A DNA stretch of 64,000 nt from Methanoculleus oceani (GTDB taxonomy: Archaea; Halobacteriota; Methanomicrobia; Methanomicrobiales; Methanoculleaceae): assembly GCF_023702065.1 (NCBI RefSeq), contig NZ_QFDM01000002.1, positions 806,001 to 870,000 of the forward strand. Direction: 5' to 3'. The position numbers and the translations under genes were made by a program. Of the stretch, positions 91 through 15,787 are shown piece after piece (the first letter of the stretch is position 1; each line of letters starts with the position of its first letter). The notes under the pieces were generated by a model. The model ran no database searches and was not told the origin of the DNA. It was given only the letters and a program-made list of their open reading frames with translations.

Positions 91-99
91 CATATATAG
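91..99 (+). promoter_or_regulatory. TATA box upstream of the nitrogenase-like genes
   Basis: The sequence catatatag lies about 60 nt before the start codon of the NifH-like gene, in an AT-rich leader. It fits an archaeal TATA box that would start transcription near position 120. No clear purine-rich BRE is visible in front of it, so the assignment is tentative. Confidence 0.45.
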
Positions 100-158: not shown

Positions 159-977
159 ATGAAACAGATCGCTCTCTACGGGAAGGGGGGAATCGGGAAA
201 TCCACCACTGCAGCGAACCTGTCGGCAGCACTCGCAGGAGAGGGGCTCGATATCCTGCAGATCGGCTGCGATCCGAAGCACGACAGCACCCGCATGCTGA
301 TGCACGGGACCTGGATCCCGACGGTCCTCGACCTCATCCGGGAGCGTGGAGACGAGAGCATCACCGCCGACGACGTGGTCTACGAGGGCTTCCGGGGGGT
401 GCGCTGCGTGGAGGCCGGCGGCCCAGAACCGGGGATCGGGTGCGCCGGCCGGGGCATCATCGCGACATTCCAGCTCCTCGAACGCCTGGAGGCCCTCAAA
501 GGCGACGTGATCGTCTACGATGTCCTCGGAGACGTCGTCTGCGGCGGCTTCGCGATGCCGATGCGTGAGGGATACGCGCAGGAGGTCTACCTGGTCACCT
601 CCGGCGAACTGATGTCCGTCTACGCAGCGAACAACATCGCAAAAGCCATCGCCCGCCTCTCGCGCAGGGTGCGGAGCAGGTGCTCCCTCGGAGGCGTGAT
701 CTGCAACGCAAAGAACATCGAGGGCGAACGGGACCTGGTGGAGGAGTTCGCACGCCGGATCAACTCACGGCTCATCGCCTACATCCCCCGCTCCCGGGTC
801 GTGCAGGTTGCGGAACTGCACAAGCAGACGGTCGTCGAGTACGCCCCCGAATCGGACCAGGCGGCGGTCTACCAGGAACTTGCACGCACGATTTACGGAA
901 ACGAAACGACGAGTATCCCCACCCCCCTCGAGATGGATGAGCTCGAAACCTTCGCCCTCGAATTCGTCCAGGTTTGA
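159..977 (+). CDS. NifH-like ATP-dependent iron-sulfur reductase (group IV nitrogenase-like)
   Basis: This is a 272-residue member of the NifH/BchL/CfbC family of homodimeric ATPases that pass electrons to a NifD/K-type catalytic partner. The P-loop [10 protein letters not shown] is at residues 7-16. The two cluster-ligand cysteines are present at C95 (GIGCAGRG) and C128 (DVVCGGFA). The length is that of a full NifH. The downstream NifD-like gene overlaps its 3' end by about 40 nt, so the two are co-translated. In methanogens the best known relative is CfbC, which acts in coenzyme F430 synthesis. No cfbA, cfbB or cfbE is nearby and two NifD/K-like proteins are present, so F430 synthesis is not assured and I give no symbol. 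The family is certain; the substrate is not. Confidence 0.9.
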
Positions 978-2016
978 GGGGTGTACCCTGACCGGAGCGC
1001 TCTCGGTGCTCACGGAGGTACGGGACGCTGTCTGCATCGTCCACGGTCCGGCGGGGTGCACGCACCATAACTTCTCCCTTCTTCACGCCACGTTGCTCTC
1101 GAACGGCCGGGTCGAAGTCCCCCGCCTCCTCTCCACCCGCTTAACGGAGAACGGCATCATCTTCGGGGGGGAAGAGGCGCTGGAGAAGACCATAACACGG
1201 GCGCTCTCGCTCTCGCCCACGCCCGCTTCCGTCTTCGTCCTCTCGACCTGCATCGTCGAGACGATCGGGGACGACGTCGCGGCGGTCTGCGCAAAAGAGC
1301 GGAGCATCCCGGTCATCGCCGTCCCGACCGCCGGGTTCCTCGGGGGGGTATTTGAGACCGGCATCAGAAACGCCCTCTCCTCCGTAGCCTCGCTCGCCCG
1401 GCCCGGAGGCGAGGCGACCCTCTCGGCAAACCTGGTCGGCGAGAAGAACCTGGAGTACGGCGTCGACGAGAATGCGGCCGAGATCGCACGCCTCCTCAGC
1501 CGGCTCGGCATCGGGGTCAACCTCAGGTTCGTCCGGGAGATCGGTACCAGGGATATCGAACGCCTCGGCTCTGCCGCCGTGAACATCCTCCGCGAACCGG
1601 CGCTCCGGCCGGTCGGGGAAGACCTCAAACGGAGGCTCGGCACGCCCTACGTGGACTCGTTCCCGGCAGGCCTTACGGGGACGTGCCGATTCCTTGAGGA
1701 TGTCGGCCGGATCTGCGGCATCGACGCCTCGGCAGCCGTCGAAGAGGAGCGCGCCTATCAGGCGGCGATGCTCGCGAGGTTCGCCGGGATCGCGGGCAGC
1801 AGGGTGCACTTCCAGTCTCCCCACCCCATGCTCAAGACCGATCCGGGCGCGGAGGCCATCTGCACCGAATGCGCCGAAGCCCTCGACCTCGCCGTCGTCC
1901 CGGACGGGGCGGCCATCCCCCTTCCGTACCCGGCGCCCGTGGGGACCGCCGGCCTCCGGCGGATGCTGCACCGGTGGCGGGTTCTTATCCGGGAGAAGAG
2001 GCGGCAGCCAGCGTGA
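937..2016 (+). CDS. NifD/K-like nitrogenase component 1 homologue
   Basis: This 359-residue protein resembles nitrogenase component 1 subunits, which bind iron-sulfur clusters and reduce a substrate with electrons from a NifH-type partner. Three cysteines sit in the places used for the P-cluster in NifD/K: C16 (FEGCTLTGA), C41 (HGPAGC) and C105 (VLSTCIVE). A further CTEC pair lies near the C-terminus. The frame stays open upstream inside the NifH-like gene. I chose the ATG at 937 because the family-like sequence begins just after it, which gives an overlap of about 40 nt with the NifH-like gene. I do not see the N-terminal motif that I associate with CfbD. It is therefore a nitrogenase-like protein of unassigned function, possibly forming a complex with the relative encoded at 4529-5695. 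Confidence 0.8.
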
Positions 2017-2036
2017 CGGGCTCCGGCGACCGTACA

Positions 2037-2045
2037 CTTAAATAT
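2037..2045 (+). promoter_or_regulatory. Possible TATA box for the stress-protein gene
   Basis: An AT-rich stretch (cttaaatat) lies about 40 nt before the ATG of the universal stress protein, between it and the stop of the NifD-like gene. It could give this gene its own promoter. Recognised by composition and spacing only. Confidence 0.35.
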
Positions 2046-2085
2046 CCGGTGCACAGAGAGAGAACATCGGAGTGAGTGCCAGAGT

Positions 2086-2559
2086 ATGTTCGAACGCATC
2101 TTGTTTCCAACGGACTTTTCAGAGCCCTCCATGAAAGTGCTGGGCTACATCCCCGCACTGCAGGAGGCGGGAACCCGGGAGGTGGTCCTCGTCCACGTCA
2201 TCGACTCAAAGGACATCACGCTGATCGCCTCGGGAGGACAGGGGTTCCTCGGGACCGTACCCGACCGGGAGACCGAGGCCCAGAAAGAGTTGCGAGAAGA
2301 GATCCAGCACCGGATCATCGATACCCGACGGGCGCTCGAGAGACAGGGCGTCAAGGTGACCGTCCGGACACCCGTGGGCAGCCCGGGAAAGGAGGTCGTG
2401 GCTGCAGCGGACGCAGAAGGGGTCTCGCTCATCGTCATCGGCTCCCACGGCCGGTCGAACATCCGCGACCGCCTGCTCGGGACGGTCTCGGAGTACGTGA
2501 TCAAGAACGCCCACCAGCCGGTCCTGGTCATCAAGCGTGAAGCGGTCGCCGGGAAGTAG
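2086..2559 (+). CDS. Universal stress protein (UspA family)
   Basis: A 157-residue single Usp domain of normal length. It opens with ERILFPTDFSEPS, the usual first strand and Asp, and contains the nucleotide-binding pattern GSHGRSNIRDRLLGTVSEYV near the C-terminus (G-x2-G-x9-G-S/T). Such proteins bind ATP or AMP and help cells survive stress; their exact targets are generally unknown. It lies 69 nt after the NifD-like gene and faces the PH-domain gene, so it probably ends a short rightward unit. Nothing in the sequence links it to the nitrogenase-like proteins beyond position. Confidence 0.9.
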   Translation: MFERILFPTDFSEPSMKVLGYIPALQEAGTREVVLVHVIDSKDITLIASGGQGFLGTVPDRETEAQKELREEIQHRIIDTRRALERQGVKVTVRTPVGSPGKEVVAAADAEGVSLIVIGSHGRSNIRDRLLGTVSEYVIKNAHQPVLVIKREAVAGK

Positions 2560-2597
2560 TTCTCTCCCTTTTCCCACAGCCAGTAGAAAAAGATCCT

Positions 2598-3182
2598 TTA
2601 TTTCTCCCGCCTGCTCTCCAGCAACATCCGGATCGCCCGCAGTTCCTCCACCACCGCATCGGCAGCCGGCAGCTCTTCCGGCTCGCCCCCGGTCGCGACG
2701 GGACCGGTCCTCCGTACGAAGTTCATGATCTTCTCCTGGAGGTCCTTTGGATCCGTTATCCCGTTGAGGACGATCTCCGCCCGCGCCTGGGCCGAGTATC
2801 CGGCGGTCTGCACCCGGACCGCCGAGAAGGAGAAGAACCGCATAAGGGGCCCCTGGGAGATATCCACGTTCGTGATCCGGTTGTAGGGGACGATCCCCGT
2901 CTGCCGGAACCAGACCCCCCGCTGCCAGGTGACCTCGGTGACGGTGAGCCGGTAGGTGATGCTCTCGCAGTAGAGGGGTATCCAGTAGGCGACGAAGGCG
3001 ATGACGGCAAGGACGGGTATCGCGACGGCGAGAGCGACGGGCAGCGGGCTGAAGACAACGACGGGAGCCAGCCAGGGCAGGACGAAGAGGACGACGGCCA
3101 GGACCAGGGACGCGTAGAGGTACGACCGGAACTGCGGCGCCGGTCCAAACGCCTCCCCGATGCGGAGGGTGATGAGGGACAT
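2598..3182 (-). CDS. Membrane protein with bacterial PH-like domain (bPH2/DUF304)
   Basis: A 194-residue protein with two closely spaced hydrophobic segments (about residues 22-45 and 47-68) followed by a PH-like beta domain. The pattern ITYRLTVTEVTWQRGVWF, then IVPYNRITNVDISQGPL and IVLNGITDPKDLQEKI, is typical of the bPH2 (YdbS/YdbT-like) family. A charged tail follows. These membrane proteins have no established biochemical role. The gene converges with the stress-protein gene and starts about 15 nt from the end of the acetyltransferase gene, so it may be the last gene of a leftward unit. Confidence 0.8.
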   Translation of the reverse strand: MSLITLRIGEAFGPAPQFRSYLYASLVLAVVLFVLPWLAPVVVFSPLPVALAVAIPVLAVIAFVAYWIPLYCESITYRLTVTEVTWQRGVWFRQTGIVPYNRITNVDISQGPLMRFFSFSAVRVQTAGYSAQARAEIVLNGITDPKDLQEKIMNFVRRTGPVATGGEPEELPAADAVVEELRAIRMLLESRREK

Positions 3183-3197
3183 ACTAGTACACTAATC

Positions 3198-3677
3198 TCA
3201 ATCCGGATTGATTAAGCCTTCCCGGCCGGCGAGGTCCCTCCTGAGGATGTGGCGATCGCCTCCCTCGCCGAAGTAGGCCGGGCAGAAGTCCGTCTCCCGA
3301 AAACCGTGCCTCTCGTAGAGCCCCCGGGCGCCGTGGTTTCCCGGCGCGACCGAGAGGCAGACTTCCCCCGCTCCCCGCTCCCGGAGGCTGCCGGTGACGG
3401 CGGCAACGAGGTTCCCCCCGAGCCCGCGGCGCCGGTAGCGCTCCGCCACCACCAGCCGGACGATCCAGCCCGTGGCCGGCCGGTGCTGCACGAGAGCCCC
3501 GATGGTGTAGCCGACGACCTTCCCGCCGCATTCCGCAACAAGGAAGGTATCGGCGAAGAGGACGCCGGCCTGCCGGATGAAGACCTCGGGCTTGCAGCCT
3601 TCAGGGCTGTTCTCCCGCTCGAGGGCACAGACTGCCGGATAATCCTCGTCGCGGTATCCCCTGATCATCGGGTCCAT
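3198..3677 (-). CDS. GNAT-family N-acetyltransferase (RimI-like)
   Basis: About 159 residues with the GNAT fold. The acetyl-CoA binding motif A is clear (VVAERYRRRGLGGNLV, pattern R-x-x-G-x-G/A). It is followed by LSVAPGNHGARGLYERHGF, the usual motif B with the conserved Tyr before the RHGF turn. Similarity to RimI suggests acetylation of a protein N-terminus or a small amine; the substrate cannot be read from the sequence. The frame extends upstream, but a start at 3677 (MDPMIRGYRDEDY) puts the first conserved strand at the N-terminus; an ATG nine nt downstream is equally possible. It follows the small helical protein gene on the same strand. Confidence 0.85.
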   Translation of the reverse strand: MDPMIRGYRDEDYPAVCALERENSPEGCKPEVFIRQAGVLFADTFLVAECGGKVVGYTIGALVQHRPATGWIVRLVVAERYRRRGLGGNLVAAVTGSLRERGAGEVCLSVAPGNHGARGLYERHGFRETDFCPAYFGEGGDRHILRRDLAGREGLINPD

Positions 3678-3759
3678 ACCAGTGTATTCGTCATGGAGGG
3701 TAAAAAAGAGGCAGCAGCCCCGGGGCCCCACGCCCCGGTGCATACGAGGACGTACAGGC

Positions 3760-3966
3760 TCACTTCTTCAGGCCTTTCTCAAGCATGTCGCGCGCCATCT
3801 TGTAGGTCTCGATCTTGTACTGCATCATCTCGATGTGCTGCTGCTTCATCTTGATGCGGGACTCGATCATCCGTATTGTCAGCTGCCGCATCTGGTCCTC
3901 GTCGAGGAGATCGCGCATCTTCTCAAGGAGCATACCGTGGGCGCCGTATCCGCCGTAATGTGTCAT
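3760..3966 (-). CDS. Small helical protein of unknown function
   Basis: A 68-residue protein that begins MTHYGGYGAHGM and then forms one long charged, methionine-rich helix (LLEKMRDLLDEDQMRQLTI and onward) of coiled-coil character. The end is basic. I do not recognise a family. Codon use is like its neighbours and an AT-rich stretch precedes the start, so it is probably real and separately transcribed. The Gly-Tyr-rich start followed by a helix might mediate oligomerisation, but that is speculation. Confidence 0.65.
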   Translation of the reverse strand: MTHYGGYGAHGMLLEKMRDLLDEDQMRQLTIRMIESRIKMKQQHIEMMQYKIETYKMARDMLEKGLKK

Positions 3967-4070
3967 GTCATAACCCCCTTATACCGACCTCGTCTATACG
4001 GGCGAGATCGGCACCTCGATATCTGCCGGCCCTTAAATACCTTATGGCAGGTGGGCCCCGTCCCGCGGGG

Positions 4071-4439
4071 TTACGGGGAGGACGCGAACGCTTCGCCGTG
4101 TTCGGCCCAGTTCTCGACCGGCGGCTCGTAGAGGACGATACAGACGTCTTCGGGATGAACTCCGGCATTTCGGGCGAGCTGCTCCACGATCGCACGGTAG
4201 AGTGCCTCTTTCTTCTCGGCGCTGCGCCCCGGCATGAGCGAGACCTCGATGAGGACTGCGTCGCCGGAACGGCCGGGGGGCATCGGGAAGTTCTCCTCTT
4301 TTCGCTCGCAGAGCCGGATCCAGAGGGCGGCCTCCGGGGTCTGCAGGGTGTCTACAAAAGCCTCACGGAGACTTTCGATAAGCAATTGCCGGTAAGCAAC
4401 AGGCTTTCCGGTGCGGATCTCGATCTTTACAAGCGGCAT
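4071..4439 (-). CDS. Tautomerase-superfamily (4-oxalocrotonate tautomerase-like) protein
   Basis: A 122-residue protein that starts MPLVKIEIRTGKP, with the Pro directly after the initiator Met that serves as the general base in 4-oxalocrotonate tautomerase and MIF relatives. It is long enough to hold two beta-alpha-beta units. The second begins VLIEVSLMPGRSAEKKEALYRAIVEQLA, which repeats the helix pattern of the first. Its reaction in methanogens is unknown. It is on the same strand as the nitrogenase-like gene 90 nt upstream and may be transcribed with it. Confidence 0.75.
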   Translation of the reverse strand: MPLVKIEIRTGKPVAYRQLLIESLREAFVDTLQTPEAALWIRLCERKEENFPMPPGRSGDAVLIEVSLMPGRSAEKKEALYRAIVEQLARNAGVHPEDVCIVLYEPPVENWAEHGEAFASSP

Positions 4440-4528
4440 GCAGACATCTCTCCAGCGGCAGCCGGGGATCCGGGCGAATCCCCGTTCTCCTGCATGAGTG
4501 TTCCGGCACCGGGGGTATTAACGGTTTC

Positions 4529-5695
4529 CTAGAAGCGGTCCGTACCCTCGCTCTCCGGGCGCCGGTTCCTGTTCGCGCAGGCGTTGAGCACCCCGTCCAT
4601 CAGCCGGAGCGCCCCTTCGATCCCGATCAGCGCCCGGGATGAGAGGAGGAACCTGCCCCGGAGCGGCGGCGTCAGCCCAACGAATGCGGCGCCCGGAGCG
4701 ATCGCCCGTTCGTAGGAGGAACCGAGGATCAGGTCGGGTTCGGCGTCCCGGATCATCTCCCGGATGGTCGAGAAATCGGTTGTATGGATGAATGCATCGT
4801 TCCCTGTACCGGGACCGTTCCGGACGGCGACGCAGGCGATATCGGCACCGAGATACCGGTCGAGGAGGTCGGCGGCAAACGCGGCGTACGCGTCTCCGGC
4901 AGCGATCGCCACCCGGGGCGGGTCGAACTTCCTGAGGTACTTCTCGCAGGCCTTCCTGAGCCGGGCATCGGCCCACGCGATCTCCTCTGCGACGGGCCGG
5001 GAATCGACGCCGTCGACTGAGGCTGCAAGCCGCTCGAAGGTCTCGCCGACGGCATCGAGGCCGAGGAGCGAGCCATACCAGGTCCCGACGCCGCTCGCAA
5101 GGTCCGGGTTCGTCCCGACGGTGAACGGCGCCGCCCGGCGGGTCGCGGCGTAGCGGTCCAGGCAGAAGGTGGCGGCGACTGCAGCGCCGCCCAGGTTGAG
5201 CAGGCGCCGCGCCTCGATGGCGTTCCCCCGGCAGAAGGGGTCGGTGCGGCAGATGCCGTCGATGTTGACGCCGGCGGCATGGGGGTCCACTTCCGGCGCG
5301 ATCGTATCGAGCGCACGGCGGTACCCGGCCTCGAGGTCCCCGAGGAACCCGGGGCTGTCGACGACGAGGATCTGCCCGTCGCCGGCAAGGTCGCCGATAT
5401 CCTCCCCCATGATCGCGGGCACGCAGGTGTTGACCACGGCTATCCGGGCGTAGCGGCCGTCCAACTCCCGGATCACCTCAGCGAGACGGGACTCCGTGCC
5501 GAAGATGATCTCATTCTCGACGAGGAACGTCCCGTGTATGGGGACCCCGACGAGCGATGCGGGGTAGAAGTAGCACCCGCTCGAACCGTGGACGACGACG
5601 GCGAGGTCCTCGAACCCCGAAAGACAGGCGACCGCCCCGGTCATCGCACAGGGCCAGAGGGGATTTTCGCACGGCGTACGCTGGTTGTTTTGCAT
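4529..5695 (-). CDS. Second NifD/K-like nitrogenase component 1 homologue
   Basis: A 388-residue relative of nitrogenase component 1. Its N-terminus carries cysteines at C16 (LWPCAMTGA) and C41 (HGSSGC), followed by C91 (VVNTCVPAIMGED), matching the three-cysteine layout of the NifD-like protein at 937-2016. Central conserved stretches include ENEIIFGTESRLAEVI, DSPGFLGDLEAGY and a C-terminal LILGSSYERAIAPGAAF. Together with the NifH-like and NifD-like genes about 2.5 kb away it could form an H-D-K-type reductase. It lies on the opposite strand, so it is not in the same operon. The second subunit of the CfbCD enzyme is not needed (CfbD is a homodimer), so this partner argues for a different reaction. 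Function unassigned. Confidence 0.8.
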   Translation of the reverse strand: MQNNQRTPCENPLWPCAMTGAVACLSGFEDLAVVVHGSSGCYFYPASLVGVPIHGTFLVENEIIFGTESRLAEVIRELDGRYARIAVVNTCVPAIMGEDIGDLAGDGQILVVDSPGFLGDLEAGYRRALDTIAPEVDPHAAGVNIDGICRTDPFCRGNAIEARRLLNLGGAAVAATFCLDRYAATRRAAPFTVGTNPDLASGVGTWYGSLLGLDAVGETFERLAASVDGVDSRPVAEEIAWADARLRKACEKYLRKFDPPRVAIAAGDAYAAFAADLLDRYLGADIACVAVRNGPGTGNDAFIHTTDFSTIREMIRDAEPDLILGSSYERAIAPGAAFVGLTPPLRGRFLLSSRALIGIEGALRLMDGVLNACANRNRRPESEGTDRF

Positions 5696-5755
5696 CGGTC
5701 TACAAGATCATGGCGGTGCGGGGATATAAAAGACGGGGAAGAGGGGGCGGCAGTC

Positions 5756-8755: not shown

Positions 8756-11377
8756 ATGACCGACGGACCGACCCCGGCAATGCGGCAGTATTATTCAGTG
8801 AAGGCCAGGTACCCCGATGCCGTCCTCTTCTTCCGGATGGGGGACTTCTACGAGACCTTCGGCGAGGATGCCGGCGTGGTGGCCCGGGAACTCGACATCA
8901 CCCTGACGGCCCGGGGCAGGGACAAGAACGGCGACCGGATGCCGCTCGCGGGCGTCCCCCATCACGCCGCCGACGGCTACATCGCCCGCCTGGTGAACAA
9001 GGGCTACAAGGTGGTGATCTGCGACCAGATTGAGGACCCCAAAACCGCAAAAGGCGTGGTGAAGCGGGACGTCACGAGGGTGATCACCCCGGGAACGCTG
9101 ATCGACTCCTCGATGCTCGGTTCTGCCGGCGCCCACTACCTTATGGCGGTCGCCCCCGACCGGAAGGAGACCTTCGGCCTCGCGTTTCTCGACGTCTCCA
9201 CCGGCGAGTTCTTCGTCTCCTCCGGGAGCGGCGGGCGCGACTACGCCGAGATCGTCTCGGAGGTCGTCAGGTACCGTCCCTCTGAGGCGATCGTCCCGGA
9301 GAGCCTCGCGGACGCGCTCCCCAACCGGCTCGAAGCCCTCGGGGTGACGGTGAGCCGCTACCGCGACGATGCCTTCGACCCCGACGCGGCGTGCGAGCGC
9401 CTCTGCGGGCAGTTCGGGACGGCGACGCTCGACGGCTACGGGTGCGCCGGGATGACGGGGGCAATCGCCGCGGCCGGGGCGGCGCTCCGCTACGCACAGG
9501 AGACCCAGCAGTCGCCCCTCTCCCACATCTCGGGGCTCGCGACGAAGGTTCCGACAGGAAACATGGTGCTCGACGCGATCACCCTCCGGAACCTGGAGAT
9601 CACAACGGGCATCCGCGGCGTTGGCGACGGGAGCACGCTTCTTGCCGCGCTCGACGTCACGGAGACCCCGATGGGGAGCCGGACGATGCGGTCGTTCCTG
9701 ATCGGCCCCCTGCTCGGGAAAGAGGCCATCGAGGGGAGGCTCGATGCGGTGGAGTGGTTCTTCGACCACGCGCTCGACCGGCAGGAACTCCGCGCAGCGC
9801 TCGGCGACTTCGCCGATATCGAGCGGATAGCGGGAAGGATCGCCTACGGGAACGCCGGGCCCCGGGATCTCGGGACGCTCAGGGATTCGCTTGAAGCGAT
9901 CCCGGACCTCAAAGGGCTTTTTGACGCCGACGCCCCGGCCCTGGTCCGCGAGGCCCTCGACGCGATGAGCGACCATGCCCGGGTCACGGACCTCGTCGGG
10001 CGGGCGATCGTGGACGAACCCCCGGCACGCGCGTTGGCCGGCGGGATGATCCGCGAGAGGTTCAACGAGAAACTCGACGAACTCCGGCACCTCGCGACGT
10101 CCGGGAAGGACTGGATCGTGGAGTTCCAGCAGCAGGAGCGGGAGAGGACCTCTATAAAGTCCCTCAAGATCGGCTACAACCGGGTCTTCGGCTATTACAT
10201 CGAGGTGACGAGACCGAACCTGCACCTGGTGCCGCCGGAGTACGAGCGCCGGCAGACGACGGCGAACGGCGAGCGCTACACGATACCCGACCTCCGGGAG
10301 AAGGAAGCGATGATCGCGACCGCCGAGGAGCGGCTTTCGGCACTCGAGGCGGAGATCTACGCCGAGCTCGTCCGGACGCTCGCGGCGGAGGTCCCCGGTC
10401 TCCAGGCGACCGCCCGGGCGGTGGGACTGCTCGACGTTTACGCGGCCCTCGCCGAGGTCGCCGCCCGCTACGGCTACACCCGCCCGGCGATCGAGGAGAG
10501 CGGCCGGACCATCATCCGGGACGGGCGCCACCCGGTGGTGGAGCGGCACCTTCCCGTACCGTTCGTCCCGAACGACACGGACCTCGATGCCGCCGGCGAC
10601 CAGATCATGATCATCACCGGGGCGAACATGGCAGGCAAGTCCACCTACATGCGGGCGGTGGCGCTCTGCTGCATCATGGCCCAGATGGGGAGTTTCGTCC
10701 CGGCCCGGCACGCCACCGTCGGGATCGCGGACCGGGTCTTCACCCGGGTGGGAGCGTTTGACGATCTCGCCTCCGGACAGTCCACGTTCATGGTCGAGAT
10801 GCTCGAACTCGCAAACATCTTAAACAACGCGACGCCGCGAAGCCTGGTGATCCTCGACGAGATCGGACGGGGGACGAGCACGCTCGACGGGTGCTCGATC
10901 GCCCGGGCGGTGGTGGAGTTCCTGCACGGGAGGGCGGTCGCGGGCCCCCGGACCCTCTTTGCGACCCACTTCCACGACCTGATCGACCTTGAAGGATCGC
11001 TCAAACGGGTGAAGAACTTCCACTTCGCCGTGAAAGATACCGGGAGCGACGTCGTCTTCCTCCGTAAGATCATCCCCGGCGCGACCGACAGAAGTTACGG
11101 CGTCCACGTGGCGCACCTTGCCGGGATCCCGAAGAAGGTGACCGACCGGGCAATGGAACTCTTAAAGGAGGCATCAACGCGGGAGTTCTCGGGCGGACCG
11201 CGGGCTCCCCGCTACACCCAGATGCTCCTCGTCGACCACGGCGAGGGGGTCGCGGAGGAGAACCCGGCGGTCAGGGAACTCAAGAGACTGAACCCGGACG
11301 AGATGACGCCGATCGAAGCCCTGACCACCCTCTGCCGGCTCCAGAGGCTTGCGAACGGGGAGGAAGGAGAACGGTGA
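8756..11377 (+). CDS. mutS: DNA mismatch repair protein MutS
   Basis: An 873-residue MutS1-type protein that recognises mismatches and recruits MutL. The mismatch-reading Phe-x-Glu motif lies in MGDFYETFGED (F31, E33). The connector, lever and clamp regions follow, then the ATPase with Walker A GANMAGKSTYMR, FMVEMLELANIL, Walker B LVILDEIGRGTSTLDG and a helix-turn-helix end. A strong Shine-Dalgarno sequence (aaggaga) sits just before the ATG. The gene overlaps mutL by 4 nt. MutS1/MutL pairs are bacterial in type and found in mesophilic archaea, so acquisition by transfer is likely, although base composition now matches the genome. Confidence 0.97.
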   Translation: MTDGPTPAMRQYYSVKARYPDAVLFFRMGDFYETFGEDAGVVARELDITLTARGRDKNGDRMPLAGVPHHAADGYIARLVNKGYKVVICDQIEDPKTAKGVVKRDVTRVITPGTLIDSSMLGSAGAHYLMAVAPDRKETFGLAFLDVSTGEFFVSSGSGGRDYAEIVSEVVRYRPSEAIVPESLADALPNRLEALGVTVSRYRDDAFDPDAACERLCGQFGTATLDGYGCAGMTGAIAAAGAALRYAQETQQSPLSHISGLATKVPTGNMVLDAITLRNLEITTGIRGVGDGSTLLAALDVTETPMGSRTMRSFLIGPLLGKEAIEGRLDAVEWFFDHALDRQELRAALGDFADIERIAGRIAYGNAGPRDLGTLRDSLEAIPDLKGLFDADAPALVREALDAMSDHARVTDLVGRAIVDEPPARALAGGMIRERFNEKLDELRHLATSGKDWIVEFQQQERERTSIKSLKIGYNRVFGYYIEVTRPNLHLVPPEYERRQTTANGERYTIPDLREKEAMIATAEERLSALEAEIYAELVRTLAAEVPGLQATARAVGLLDVYAALAEVAARYGYTRPAIEESGRTIIRDGRHPVVERHLPVPFVPNDTDLDAAGDQIMIITGANMAGKSTYMRAVALCCIMAQMGSFVPARHATVGIADRVFTRVGAFDDLASGQSTFMVEMLELANILNNATPRSLVILDEIGRGTSTLDGCSIARAVVEFLHGRAVAGPRTLFATHFHDLIDLEGSLKRVKNFHFAVKDTGSDVVFLRKIIPGATDRSYGVHVAHLAGIPKKVTDRAMELLKEASTREFSGGPRAPRYTQMLLVDHGEGVAEENPAVRELKRLNPDEMTPIEALTTLCRLQRLANGEEGER

Positions 11378-13128
11378 CGAAGATACGGGTCCTCGACCCC
11401 GATACCGTGAACCAGATCGCCGCCGGCGAGGTCGTGGAGCGGCCCGCATCGGTGGTGAAGGAACTCCTGGAGAACGCGATCGATGCGGGGTCGACGAGCA
11501 TCCTTATCGACGTCTCCTCGGACATGGGGGGGATCGCGAAGATCCGGGTGACCGACAACGGCGAGGGCATGACACCGGAAGAGGCGGCCCTTGCGTTCCA
11601 TCCCCACGCGACGAGCAAGATCCGGGATATCGCCGATCTCTGTGCCATCCGCACCCTGGGGTTCCGGGGGGAGGCGCTCGCGAGCATCGCCGCCGTCGCG
11701 GAGGTGACCCTGATCACCCGTCCCGGGGGAGCCGGGGCGCTCGCCGGAACGAGAGTAGTCATCCGGGGAGGGGAGATCATCGAGAAGAGCGAGGTGGGGG
11801 CGCCTGAGGGGACGACGGTCGTCGTGGAGCGCCTCTTCTACAACACCCCCGCCCGCCGGAAGTTCCTCAAAAGCAGGAACACCGAGCTCGCCCACATCTA
11901 CGCGGTCGTGGAGAACCTGGCCCTCGCGCACGGCGAGGTCGCCTTCCGGGTGGTGCACAACGGGAAGGAGCGGATGGCGACCCAGCGGTCGGGGGGGCTC
12001 CTGAACACCATCGCAGGCCTCTACGGCGCCGAACTCGCCCGGTCGCTCGTCCCGGTCGAAGGAGGGCTCCTCTTCCTCCGTATCGGCGGCTACGTCTCCC
12101 GGCCGTCGGAGAGCAGGGGGAACCCGTCGCAGGTGGTCATCAGCATCAATGGCAGGAGCATCGCCTCCCGCCAGATCGCCGCCGCCGTCAGGGAGGGCTA
12201 CGGCACCCTCCTCCCGAAGGACCGTTACCCGGTGGCGTTCCTCGACCTCTCGATCGACACCGATCTCGTGGACGTCAACGTTCACCCGACGAAAAGGGAG
12301 GTCCGCCTCTCCCGGGAGCGCGAGATCCTCCCGGCGGTTGCGGCCGCCGTCGAGGAGGCGCTTGCCGGGCACGACCTCGTCGGAGACATACCGGCCGAGC
12401 CGGTGCAGCAGCAGATCGTCCCGCGGGAGCCCGGACCGGAGCCGGCACCGGCGGCCGGCGAGCCCGGAGCGTCCTACACCGCGGGGCACCGCGAACTCGC
12501 CCTCTCCGACAAGCAGCTCCGCCGGACGGAGACGGAGGGGGGAGAGAACCTCCTCCCGGCCATGGAGCCGATCGGGCAGGTGGCGGCGACCTACATCGTG
12601 GCGGAGGGGGCCGACGGCACCCTCTACCTCGTTGACCAGCACGCGGCCCATGAGCGGATCCTCTACGACCAGGTCGTGGAGCAGCGCGATGCAAAAGCCG
12701 GGTCGCAGGAACTGATCATGCCCGTCGTCCTCTCGCTCCGTCCAAAGGAGTCGGCCGCGCTCCGGGACGCGATGCCGCTCCTTGCCGACGGGGGGTTCGT
12801 GGTGGAGGAGTTCGGCCGGGATACCTTCGCCGTCCGGGCGGTGCCCGCGGCCCTCGGCGCGGTCGAAGACCCCGGGACGGTCAGGGAGACGATCGCCGAC
12901 CTCCTCGCCGACGCGTCCCGCACCGTCCCCGACCGGCGGGAGGCGGTCACCTGCATCGTCGCCTGCAGGGGTGCGGTGAAGGCCGGCGCCCTTCTCACGC
13001 ACGACCAGCAGAAACGCCTCCTCGCACAGCTCGCCCGGACGAAGACCCCCTGGACGTGCCCGCACGGGAGGCCGACGGTGGTGGCGTTCGATAAGAGGAA
13101 ACTCGACGGGATGTTCCGGCGGGGGTAG
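11374..13128 (+). CDS. mutL: DNA mismatch repair protein MutL
   Basis: A 584-residue MutL starting at a GTG that overlaps the mutS stop. The GHKL ATPase motifs are intact: ELLENAIDAGS, DNGEGM, HATSKI and GFRGEAL. The family signature and NVHPTKREV mark the transducer domain. After a Pro/Ala-rich linker, the C-terminal domain has DQHAAHERILYD, ACRGAVKAG and CPHGRPT, the motifs of nicking MutL proteins. The final Glu of the DQHA(x)2E(x)4E motif is Asp here, a conservative change. The protein is thus probably an endonuclease-type MutL, as expected without MutH. It forms a two-gene unit with mutS. Confidence 0.96.
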   Translation: MTKIRVLDPDTVNQIAAGEVVERPASVVKELLENAIDAGSTSILIDVSSDMGGIAKIRVTDNGEGMTPEEAALAFHPHATSKIRDIADLCAIRTLGFRGEALASIAAVAEVTLITRPGGAGALAGTRVVIRGGEIIEKSEVGAPEGTTVVVERLFYNTPARRKFLKSRNTELAHIYAVVENLALAHGEVAFRVVHNGKERMATQRSGGLLNTIAGLYGAELARSLVPVEGGLLFLRIGGYVSRPSESRGNPSQVVISINGRSIASRQIAAAVREGYGTLLPKDRYPVAFLDLSIDTDLVDVNVHPTKREVRLSREREILPAVAAAVEEALAGHDLVGDIPAEPVQQQIVPREPGPEPAPAAGEPGASYTAGHRELALSDKQLRRTETEGGENLLPAMEPIGQVAATYIVAEGADGTLYLVDQHAAHERILYDQVVEQRDAKAGSQELIMPVVLSLRPKESAALRDAMPLLADGGFVVEEFGRDTFAVRAVPAALGAVEDPGTVRETIADLLADASRTVPDRREAVTCIVACRGAVKAGALLTHDQQKRLLAQLARTKTPWTCPHGRPTVVAFDKRKLDGMFRRG

Positions 13129-13311
13129 GGTGGGCGGCCCGGGGATACCCCGCAGGGAACTATCGCATATAACCAGCCTTTTTTGAGATTAGTCGAGAAT
13201 AATTGGCTTTAAGGGCAAAAGCCCGTATGACAATGGCTTTATTCTCAGGAGATCAGAACGGCTATATGTCACAGCGGGACTGACCCGCTGCAGACGAAAG
13301 GATTGAATCAT
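13129..13311. other. Intergenic region after mutL
   Basis: No gene is seen here. A T-rich run (ccttttttgag) after mutL could end its transcript. A second, similar T-run (ctttttttgaga) lies near 13543, after the next small gene. A short hairpin-forming stretch (gggcaaaagccc) lies near 13213. The right part holds the promoter elements described in the next entry. Confidence 0.5.
13262..13290 (+). promoter_or_regulatory. TATA-like box followed by a perfect palindrome
   Basis: An AT-rich ctatatg at about 13262-13268 is followed by a perfect 7-bp inverted repeat, cagcggg and cccgctg, separated by 5 nt (13272-13290). It ends some 20 nt before the GTG of the small gene at 13312. Given the usual 25-nt distance from TATA box to start of transcription, the palindrome would lie over the promoter. 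An operator is therefore more likely than an mRNA hairpin. The regulator is unknown. Confidence 0.4.
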
Positions 13312-13479
13312 GTGACACTACTCCAGCAGATTCGCCTCTGGATGATGACCAGGAGCAGGGGGAAGCAGTATCATGACTGTGAGAACGACTCAGTCATCGA
13401 ACCCTACTTCGATATCTCTCCCGAAGCGACCCTCCCTTCGGATATCCCCGATATCCCGCTGGAAGAGATCATCAGGTGA
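13312..13479 (+). CDS. Small hypothetical protein (55 aa)
   Basis: A 55-residue reading frame from GTG, preceded by a good ribosome-binding sequence (aaagga) about 8 nt upstream and by a TATA-like box with palindrome. The protein starts basic (QQIRLWMMTRSRGKQYHDC) and ends acidic with repeated Asp-Ile-Pro. I do not recognise a family. The regulated-looking promoter and the codon pattern (third-position C/G) support a real gene, but conservation would be needed to be sure. Confidence 0.45.
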   Translation: MTLLQQIRLWMMTRSRGKQYHDCENDSVIEPYFDISPEATLPSDIPDIPLEEIIR

Positions 13480-13650
13480 CGGGGAACGTCCCCCCAAACG
13501 TCCTGCCGAACGGATCACCTCTCAGTAATCTCATATCACCCGCCACCTTTTTTTGAGAACACCGTCTCCACCGTGTGCTGCCCTCATGGCCCGGGCGGTT
13601 CCAGGAGTATCACCGGGAGTCCGGACGGGGGCATGGCCCGGAAAAAGGGG

Positions 13651-14244
13651 TCAGAGAAACCGGAACGACTCCGCCGTCGGAGCCGCATCGACGTTGTAAG
13701 CATCGTACTCCGGAGGGAACACCGTGTGCATGACCGAGTAGACGGCGTTGTCCCTGACGGCATAACGGATGACGAAAGTGTACCGGTCCTCGTCGACGAT
13801 GGGGACGGAGTAGACCGACTCGTACGCCGGGATGCCGTCGAGAGAAGTCTTCTCCGTGGAGACCCATTCGGCCCCGATATCGGCCTTGAGATCCTCTGTG
13901 TAGGTCGCGTTCAGCGCCTCGAGAACCTTCTCCGCATCGGCGGTTCCCTGGCCCGGGAGCGGGTTCGTGTTCACGCGGACCTCCTCGTGCTTATCCGGCG
14001 AGGAGAACCATACGCTCTCGCCCGACTCGGTGTAGAACCATCCCTCCGGGCAGGTGACGGCATAGCCGTAGGTGGCGTTGATATAGGTGCCGTTCCCGGG
14101 AACAGGCGCCGGCGTCGGGGTCGGGACAGGGGTCGGGCCGGGCTCAGGCGACTGCGGCGAGAAGAGTCCCGGCAGCAGAACCGCCAGGACAACGGCCAGA
14201 GCAGCCACAAGAACACCGATGATCAGCAGTCTCTGTGATTTCAT
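13651..14244 (-). CDS. Membrane-anchored extracytoplasmic protein, PsbP-like
   Basis: A 197-residue protein with one N-terminal membrane segment (about residues 7-27), then a Pro/Thr linker (PTPVPTPTPAP) as in many archaeal surface proteins, then a globular domain. That domain begins with NATYGYAVTCPEGWFYTES and continues with a PsbP/DUF1795-like pattern (a Tyr-Gly-hydrophobic strand followed by P-x-G-W). It is probably displayed outside the cell on a single anchor. The function of this group in archaea is not known. It is a single gene; the next gene on the same strand lies about 150 nt upstream. Confidence 0.7.
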   Translation of the reverse strand: MKSQRLLIIGVLVAALAVVLAVLLPGLFSPQSPEPGPTPVPTPTPAPVPGNGTYINATYGYAVTCPEGWFYTESGESVWFSSPDKHEEVRVNTNPLPGQGTADAEKVLEALNATYTEDLKADIGAEWVSTEKTSLDGIPAYESVYSVPIVDEDRYTFVIRYAVRDNAVYSVMHTVFPPEYDAYNVDAAPTAESFRFL

Positions 14245-14395
14245 GCTATCCGGTTACGTGGCCCGGACAAGGATAAATACTCTTCAGTCGGGTTCTGGTG
14301 ACGGCCGCGATCATTCCTTCGATCGGCGGGCGTGTCGGGGCGGCATGTTCCCGGAGAGGGAGAAGACCTCTTCGCCTGCGTTTTGGCGGCTGCCA

Positions 14396-15265
14396 TCAGG
14401 AAACCCCGACGACCGAAGCCGCCGCGGGAGCACGGACGTCGGCGATCAGGTCGTCGAGGGTATCCACGTACTTCACCCGGATGCCGAGGTTCTCCTCGAT
14501 GTACTCTTTCGTATCCATGACGACCGGCCGTTGCCTCGCTATCCTCAGTCCGCCGAACGAACGGTCCTCCTCCCGGTACTCGATCATCTGGTCGTTCTCG
14601 TCCGAGAGGATCAGGAGCGTCTTCCCGCTCACCGCGGCGGCCTCGGCCTTCTCGAGGATTCCGCCGACCGGGCCGATCTTCCCGTTCTCATCGATGGTCC
14701 CGGTCACGGTCACGCTCTCGTTGAGCGGGAAGTCCTCCAGCACCGAGAGGAGGAGCGTGGCCATCAACGCCCCGGCGCTGGGGCCGTCGATCTCGGAGAC
14801 CTCTTCCGGGCCCTGGATGCTGAAGATGATATCGCTCTCCGCAAGGTTCACGCGGGAGTGGTTGGCGGCGACAACGACCGCAAGGTTCGCGGCGTCCTGA
14901 AAGACTATCCCCATCAGGGGTGTCGTCTGGATGAGCACCCTCCCCTTGCCGGGCACGACCTCGACCGAGACGTTCACCATCGCCCCCTCCTCGATCACCT
15001 CCTCGTAGAGGAACGGGCCGCCCCGGTCGACCTCGATCTTCTGAAGAATGACCGGCACCTGCATCGAGGCAGCACTCCCGTTCGCCGGCCCTCTTCCGGG
15101 CGGGAGAGGGGTCAGTGTCGCAGTCGGGAGGGTATCGGTCTCCTCCGGTTTGGAGAGCGCCGGGGAGAGGTCGTCCGCCGGCACGAGGACGACGGCCAGG
15201 AGGAAGACGTTCGCAACAAGCGATAGAACGAGCAGAATCGTCAGGGTCTTCTCCCGTATGCGCAT
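14396..15265 (-). CDS. Membrane-anchored Lon-type (S16) protease domain protein
   Basis: About 289 residues with one N-terminal membrane segment (TILLVLSLVANVFLLAVVLV) and a C-terminal S16 protease domain without an ATPase. The nucleophile is in EIDGPSAGALMA (Ser of GPSAG). The catalytic Lys lies about 40 residues later in GTIDENGKIGPVGGI. The layout, with the domain outside the membrane, matches the archaeal secreted Lon-like proteins. Its targets are unknown. I used the ATG at 15265; a GTG 18 nt upstream also fits. The upstream 500 nt hold hairpin repeats and the promoter of the divergent lipoprotein gene. Confidence 0.8.
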   Translation of the reverse strand: MRIREKTLTILLVLSLVANVFLLAVVLVPADDLSPALSKPEETDTLPTATLTPLPPGRGPANGSAASMQVPVILQKIEVDRGGPFLYEEVIEEGAMVNVSVEVVPGKGRVLIQTTPLMGIVFQDAANLAVVVAANHSRVNLAESDIIFSIQGPEEVSEIDGPSAGALMATLLLSVLEDFPLNESVTVTGTIDENGKIGPVGGILEKAEAAAVSGKTLLILSDENDQMIEYREEDRSFGGLRIARQRPVVMDTKEYIEENLGIRVKYVDTLDDLIADVRAPAAASVVGVS

Positions 15266-15312
15266 ACGCTGCCCGAATATCACTCATCCGGATATATACC
15301 TTTCCGCTGAGC

Positions 15313-15468
15313 GACGGTTCGCTAGAACCGGAGCTCGAGCACCGAAGAACGATGTTCCATCAGGAACGGAGTTCGAGCACCGGAGGTGCGAGGTGCGACT
15401 GGTGACTGGCGCGAGCATCGCGAGCGGCAGGAGCTTGAGCACCATAGGTGCGACGGCTCGTTAGAGCC
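15313..15468 (+). repeat. Mini-hairpin repeat array, copy A
   Basis: A string of short perfect hairpins joined by a conserved linker GGAGYTYGA (15330-15338, 15368-15376, 15430-15438). Hairpins: ggttc/gaacc (15316-15329), gttcc/ggaac (15354-15367), gcacc/ggtgc with loop gga (15377-15389), cgcga/tcgcg (15410-15422), gcacc/ggtgc with loop ata (15439-15451) and ggctc/gagcc (15455-15468). Stem sequences differ while pairing is kept. Related arrays lie at 32713-32893 and 54927-55041. A larger inverted repeat (aacactgc and gcagtgtt) follows just after 15470. Confidence 0.75.
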
Positions 15469-15469
15469 G

Positions 15470-15787
15470 GGGCAAACACTGCTCCCCGGCAGTGCCGGTG
15501 CAGTGTTCCGGGCCCTCATCGTTACCCTCCGGACGCCGCCCCTCAACTCGCAGATCCGGGTCAGGGCTCCGGCTTTTTGACCGCCTTCACCCGTCATCGT
15601 ACCTTCTGCAACGGGCCGTCCCAGCAGGGTCTGCAGGTCATCACGCTCCGCCCCCTCACTCTTGAACCATTCCGGACCTAAAAAGCCGATAGCCGGCAAA
15701 TTTCACCAGGATTCTCACGCTTCGCTCCGTAGCGCACACAGGAACACTTCAATACGATTTTATCCTCCTCTGCCGGAAGAAAAAGTA
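15470..15787. other. Intergenic region before the lipoprotein gene
   Basis: No gene is seen. It begins with an 8-bp inverted repeat, aacactgc and gcagtgtt, that may fold into a hairpin. It ends with an AT-rich stretch (acgattttatcctc) about 35 nt before the ATG at 15788, which could hold the promoter. Confidence 0.45.

Follow-up and report, generated by a model that had tools for sequence, protein, structure and literature searches.

Our question was what enzyme is made by three nitrogenase-like genes of Methanoculleus oceani, here called H, D1 and D2, which lie at the start of a 64,000-nucleotide stretch of its genome (the window, G000:C2:806001-870000; the genome is 2.46 Mb in 3 contigs and 99.2% complete). 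H codes for a NifH-like, ATP-dependent reductase, and D1 and D2 code for subunits of the NifD/NifE and the NifK/NifN type. The reading we favor, with a probability of about 0.62, is that together they are a two-component nitrogenase-like reductase whose relay is P-cluster-like and which lacks a cofactor of the nitrogenase type, and that H is common to this enzyme and to F430 synthesis. It builds on gene content, the conservation of the operon, the pattern of residues, the folds predicted for each chain alone and the loss of D1 and D2 in genomes that keep H, all of which were observed.

H occupies positions 159-977 of the plus strand (272 residues) and is recognized by PF00142 (Fer4_NifH, 362 bits at a cut-off of 25) and NF033200, with a score just short of the cut-off on TIGR01287. 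D1 follows on the same strand at 937-2016 (359 residues, with a reduced C-terminal domain), its start lying inside the end of H with an overlap of the open frames of 41 nt (937-977), and D2 is found on the minus strand at 4529-5695 (388 residues). Pfam detects Oxidored_nitro in both, with 185 bits in D1 and 139 bits in D2 (cut-off 28.6), and their subunit types were assigned by profiles, alignment, structural model, Foldseek and tree. All three frames are intact. A preliminary description of this DNA had reported a NifH-like protein with both ligand cysteines, two component-1 homologues with three cysteines each, and a set divided over two strands with five other genes between, and all of this was borne out. 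The ligand cysteines of H are C95 and C128, which are nearly or fully invariant in its orthologues, while the three cysteines of D1 (C16, C41 and C105) and of D2 (C16, C41 and C91) do not vary among 21 orthologues of each protein. With a NifH-family protein that has both cluster cysteines and with subunits of PF00148, the set is a nitrogenase-like reductase in the broad sense, and H would pass electrons to D1-D2 in an ATP-dependent manner.

The same description had left two ways to read the set, as a two-subunit nitrogenase-like reductase of unassigned substrate or as CfbD with a side paralogue. The second of these has practically no chance of being right. Exactly three PF00148 proteins are encoded in the genome, and the one that is neither D1 nor D2, at C2:579,550, is CfbD, with 507 bits on the model TIGR03282 (cut-off 268) and with CfbE (345 bits) directly before it, whereas D1 and D2 reach 49 and 46 bits. 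The gene after it resembles cfbB by position and sequence, and no NCBIfam model matched on the part tested. CfbD also has a serine at the first cysteine position, where the alignment has a cysteine in both D1 and D2. Membership of one superfamily, and an approximately unbiased (AU) test that leaves a grouping with CfbD unrejected, would allow D1 or D2 to be CfbD, but the separate full CfbD beside cfbE and the low model scores exclude orthology. As to a second cfbCD pair elsewhere, which had also been considered, the separate CfbD exists with its cfbE, and a second CfbC is ruled out since the next PF00142 match of the genome after H has only 53 bits. Among related genomes, three metagenome-assembled genomes (MAGs) of family f6, genus g18 (G094, G098 and G118) have H, D1 and D2 and no CfbD match. 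These are probably incomplete bins (79-92% complete), and CfbD is present in six other g18 genomes.

The residues of D1 and D2 say more about what kind of enzyme this could be. The cysteines C16, C41 and C105 of D1 align with C62, C88 and C154 of NifD, and C16, C41 and C91 of D2 with C70, C95 and C153 of NifK, so all six P-cluster positions are filled; D1 C118 and D2 C9 are further invariant cysteines. At the position of NifD Cys275 and NifE Cys250 all D1 rows have an arginine (Arg219), and the His442 region is missing from D1 with the loss of the C-terminal cofactor region. The cofactor cysteine is kept by NifD and NifE and by the majority of the other nfl D proteins in the alignment set. D1 therefore has neither the ligands of the iron-molybdenum cofactor (FeMoco) of NifDK, nor the cofactor cysteine of NifEN, nor the Cys/His ligands of the [8Fe-9S-C] cofactor of MarDK, which were looked for at the NifD Cys and His positions with MarD His429 as in PMC12552129. 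Without an equivalent of Cys275 or His442, no [8Fe-9S-C] cofactor would be expected in D1-D2. CfbD and BchNB, for their part, are without some of the six P-cluster-position cysteines (alignment; PMC12552129). The BchB model (cut-off 490) gives D1 61 bits and D2 25 bits, and with cysteine at all six positions the pattern of three cysteines and an aspartate that marks the protochlorophyllide reductase DPOR is absent.

Comparing the set with known systems makes its position clearer. Like NifHDK and MarHDK it has the six P-cluster cysteines and the D/K arrangement, but it differs from both in the cofactor ligands. Like DPOR (BchL/BchN/BchB) and the chlorophyllide reductase COR it has three components, no nitrogenase-type cofactor and a good fold match, but BchB has a proline and an aspartate at two of the cysteine positions and the identity is low. 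With CfbC/CfbD it has in common that H exceeds the cut-off of the CfbC model and, provided that there is no other reductase, has to serve CfbD; however, CfbD is a homodimer where D1 and D2 are two unlike proteins, and H falls outside the CfbC clade in a free tree. Six P-cluster cysteines without a cofactor ligand is a combination found in none of the characterized enzymes that we considered.

In a tree of 77 proteins D1 groups with NifD/NifE-type and D2 with NifK/NifN-type proteins. D1, D2 and CfbD each form one clade with a support of 100, and the D/K split has 85/93. On the trimmed alignment AU tests reject neither D1+CfbD nor D2+CfbD, nor do they reject H+CfbC in the reductase tree, and for this reason we make no claim on deep ancestry. 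The single-chain AlphaFold models have a mean confidence (pLDDT) of 86.5 and a predicted template modeling score (pTM) of 0.85 for D1, and of 86.8 and 0.87 for D2, and the third domain of D1 is cut down to a few elements. Foldseek returns NifE and BchB chains as top matches of D1, and NifN, VnfK and AnfK chains for D2, with NifN as the best.

These matches, together with NifE being the closest profile for D1, raise the possibility that D1-D2 serves as a scaffold in the manner of NifEN, on which [8Fe-9S-C] L-clusters from NifB are matured or carried, the activation complex of methyl-coenzyme M reductase (MCR) being one conceivable destination. NifB is encoded, and L-cluster-like centers are used in MCR activation (PMC12176620). 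We consider this clearly improbable, given that every D1 has an arginine instead of the NifE cofactor cysteine and lacks the C-terminal cofactor region. In addition, the set is limited to one order where MCR activation is general in methanogens, two genera of methanogens (g22 and g85) have lost it, and its six cysteines exceed those of bacterial NifN proteins, which keep one. Another difference from the NifEN maturase is that the genome has no nitrogenase DK genes.

The case for a two-subunit reductase is strengthened by the gene order outside Methanoculleus. At 17 of 17 such loci, from five other families, H, D1 and D2 form one operon of overlapping or abutting genes in the same direction, in which D1 and D2 overlap mostly by 8 nt, and across 20 orthologous loci the overlap of H with D1 is 17-41 nt. 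The two subunits are thus unlike by the tree and co-encoded by the operon, which is split in Methanoculleus only. There, in three congeners as in the window, D2 is inverted and found downstream of D1, ~2.1-2.5 kb away; the gap between D1 and D2 measures ~2.1-2.2 kb in the three congeners. Among the loci sampled no other genus has the split, and it was rejected as a general feature. In Methanoculleus D2 would have been relocated and inverted, which broke the operon. Selection on D2 in its new place is still purifying, since the ratio of nonsynonymous to synonymous substitution (dN/dS) within the genus is low: D1 and D2 have ~0.18-0.36, and H has 0.08-0.13. This constraint and the full-length orthologues across the order indicate that the set is not there by chance.

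The set is close to universal in its order. D2 is present in 126 of the 135 Methanomicrobiales genomes that are at least 90% complete, as counted by hand from the table; an automatic tally of 127 includes G255, whose sole match is a 102-bit paralogue. A phylum-wide sample has full-length D2 orthologues in 25/25 genomes of the order and none outside it, where partial matches reach ~62 bits or less. The best 80 loci in named genomes belong to Methanomicrobiales, or else to MAGs that carry no label finer than Euryarchaeota. D2 is missing from genus g22 (G047) and from all seven genomes of g85, three of which are single-contig. G047 keeps the order of FprA-like, desulfoferrodoxin-like and TrkH-like genes and H, from which D1 and D2 have disappeared; it also has CfbD and a CfbB-like gene, and no NifH-like match other than H. 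In G270 of g85, read over the first 1.2 Mb of its 3,544,738 bp, H stands beside phosphoribulokinase and an FprA-like gene with no D1 or D2 next to it, and CfbD is present. This genome also has a second, different H-D-K set (L175, ~12520-15563), whose H is 45% identical to that of the window. Because G270 was read in part and carries L175, the argument for loss is cleaner in G047. Genes beyond the gap look common to both genera, which suggests that one loss lies behind the absence of D1-D2 in both. As H is retained where D1-D2 has been lost, it has a role without them. In keeping with this, a published survey reported Methanospirillum hungatei JF-1 with nifH and without nifDK (PMC8597730).

What that role could be follows from H being the only strong PF00142 protein of the genome. 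On the CfbC model NF033200 it scores 423.7 bits, above the cut-off of 402, and on the NifH model TIGR01287 393.3 bits at a cut-off of 394.35. A search of 41 genomes of the order with NF033200 gave one top-scoring H-type gene per genome, the exceptions being two incomplete assemblies (G020 and G038); some genomes have extra, weaker NifH proteins located at nif or other nfl clusters. Since F430 synthesis requires a CfbC-type reductase (PMC7242693) and no other NifH-like protein is encoded, H probably also supplies CfbD. The two genera without D1-D2 support this, as they keep both H, at its old place, and CfbD. H and CfbD are both present yet never adjacent in the sampled Methanomicrobiales, where H sits with D1-D2; CfbC adjoins CfbD in other families of the phylum (f8, f14 and f15). 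The identity of H to seep-group-like NifH is 54-57%, that to CfbC 45-51%, and H and CfbC are separate clades in the free reductase tree (100/100). NF033200 also passes a NifH beside nifDK-like genes (L134:2252-3172) with 409 bits against the cut-off of 402, and this protein scores higher, 460 bits, on the NifH model. Annotation by NF033200 alone can therefore mislabel NifH as CfbC.

If H is the only NifH-like protein it is necessarily common to CfbD, and this brings up the alternative that H-D1-D2 works within F430 metabolism, as a lineage-specific extra reduction of F430 or an intermediate alongside CfbD. The relatives that have no M-cluster, DPOR and CfbCD, act on tetrapyrroles (PMC7242693, PMC12552129), which fits. 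We nevertheless regard it as unlikely, because D1-D2 is unlinked to the cfbA/B/D/E genes, the two genera that lost it have kept CfbD, and the literature searched gave no F430 variant from these archaea.

In the reductase that we favor, D1 and D2 would pair as a D/K-type heterodimer, probably as a heterotetramer, and the six interface cysteines would hold a P-cluster or a [4Fe-4S] relay. H would be a [4Fe-4S] homodimer, charged by ferredoxin (an assumption) and driven by ATP, that docks on D1-D2 to deliver electrons one at a time to the relay between the two subunits. As the ligands for the [8Fe-9S-C] cofactor are missing, the relay may reduce an organic substrate bound directly in a pocket of D1, as in protochlorophyllide reductase. 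The invariant polar residues Glu169, Lys170 and Arg219 of D1 may line this pocket. H would dock on CfbD too, making it one reductase with two catalytic partners. In short, we infer complex formation, the cluster type, the docking, the sharing of H with CfbD, and the class of reaction and substrate. A tetrapyrrole is the likeliest substrate class, with about one chance in three.

Several points weigh against this reductase. Six cysteines alone are no proof of a P-cluster. The reductase tree, in which the H+CfbC grouping survives the AU test (p 0.36), is compatible with descent of H from either CfbC or NifH. The loss in two genera means that the function of D1-D2 is dispensable. Finally, the conserved neighbors give no hint of a substrate: TrkH, phosphoribulokinase, FprA, desulfoferrodoxin and leuBCD recur and look like plain synteny. 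The absence of metabolic neighbors that hint at a substrate would also suit D1-D2 in the role of activating another protein by reduction, or of carrying electrons to it, instead of acting on a small molecule, and the reduced third domain of D1 could leave the pocket open. No partner gene is conserved alongside, though, and the nearest characterized relatives act on small molecules or cofactors, making this very improbable.

The existence of uncharacterized NifDK-like pairs as a class is already known in general terms. The 'yellow' clades of Dos Santos et al. 2012 are NifE/NifN-like pairs lacking both FeMoco ligands (PMC3464626), and like D1 and D2 they are adjacent alpha/beta-type genes with three P-cluster-position cysteines each. 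Unlike the present case, the text of that paper names no Methanomicrobiales set, no order-wide H-D1-D2 operon and no sharing of H with CfbD. In the open-access literature, with subscription papers outside the scope, we found no prior description of the order-wide operon, the shared reductase or the natural loss. If the favored reading is true, a nitrogenase-family enzyme of unassigned reaction is made by nearly all Methanomicrobiales species, and the cysteine pattern of D1-D2 would set the function of the P-cluster apart from cofactor chemistry. For its reductase step, F430 synthesis in the order would then rely on a protein whose gene lies in the operon of another enzyme and not with the F430 genes. 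Genera g22 and g85 make both ideas directly testable. Pipelines that name H 'CfbC' or 'NifH' from a single model would overlook this. A bolder version, which we hold only tentatively and think rather doubtful, is that this is a new class of reductase with a six-cysteine P-cluster site and no active-site metallocofactor, in which H displaced the ancestral CfbC and serves two unlike partners order-wide.

Other nitrogenase-like sets turned up in the search. D/K genes adjacent to CfbC in families f10 and f12 were considered as a wider range of D1-D2 and rejected, as they are longer and NifDK-like (~458 and ~425 residues); they lie ~680 nt from NifH and resemble seep-group nifHI1I2DK clusters (PMC9012536). 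A single-gene PF00148 protein of ~395 residues, 'D3' (L118, L119, L120 and L121; for example L119:1927-3117, minus strand), is encoded by some Methanomicrobiales and in family f7, and is absent from the genome of the window. D3 keeps three P-cluster-position cysteines and the Cys275 equivalent. In L119 it has no K partner next to it, and in G004 it comes after cfbA-, cfbE-, cfbD- and cfbB-like genes and an aminotransferase. In one Methanomicrobiales genome an apparent NifH-NifD-like fusion of 737 residues (L115:749-2962) is followed by a K-like gene, comparable to the fusions in PMC3464626.

In the window, the stretch that separates D1 and D2 (2017-4528; open frames and Pfam) holds five genes unrelated to the set. 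These are a universal stress protein (Usp, 2086-2559, plus strand) and, on the minus strand, a bacterial PH domain protein (bPH_2, 2598-3182), a GNAT acetyltransferase (3198-3743), a 68-residue open frame (3760-3966) and a tautomerase-like protein (4071-4439). By eye only, a TATA-like element CATATATA can be seen upstream of H (91-98, plus strand), and another, TTTATATC, ~30 nt upstream of the displaced D2 (5723-5730, minus strand), which comes after a leuB-like gene of the same orientation. Beside leuCDB-like genes lie a mutS- and a mutL-like gene, adjacent to each other (873 and 584 residues, 8756-13128, plus strand), as judged by eye from the translations.

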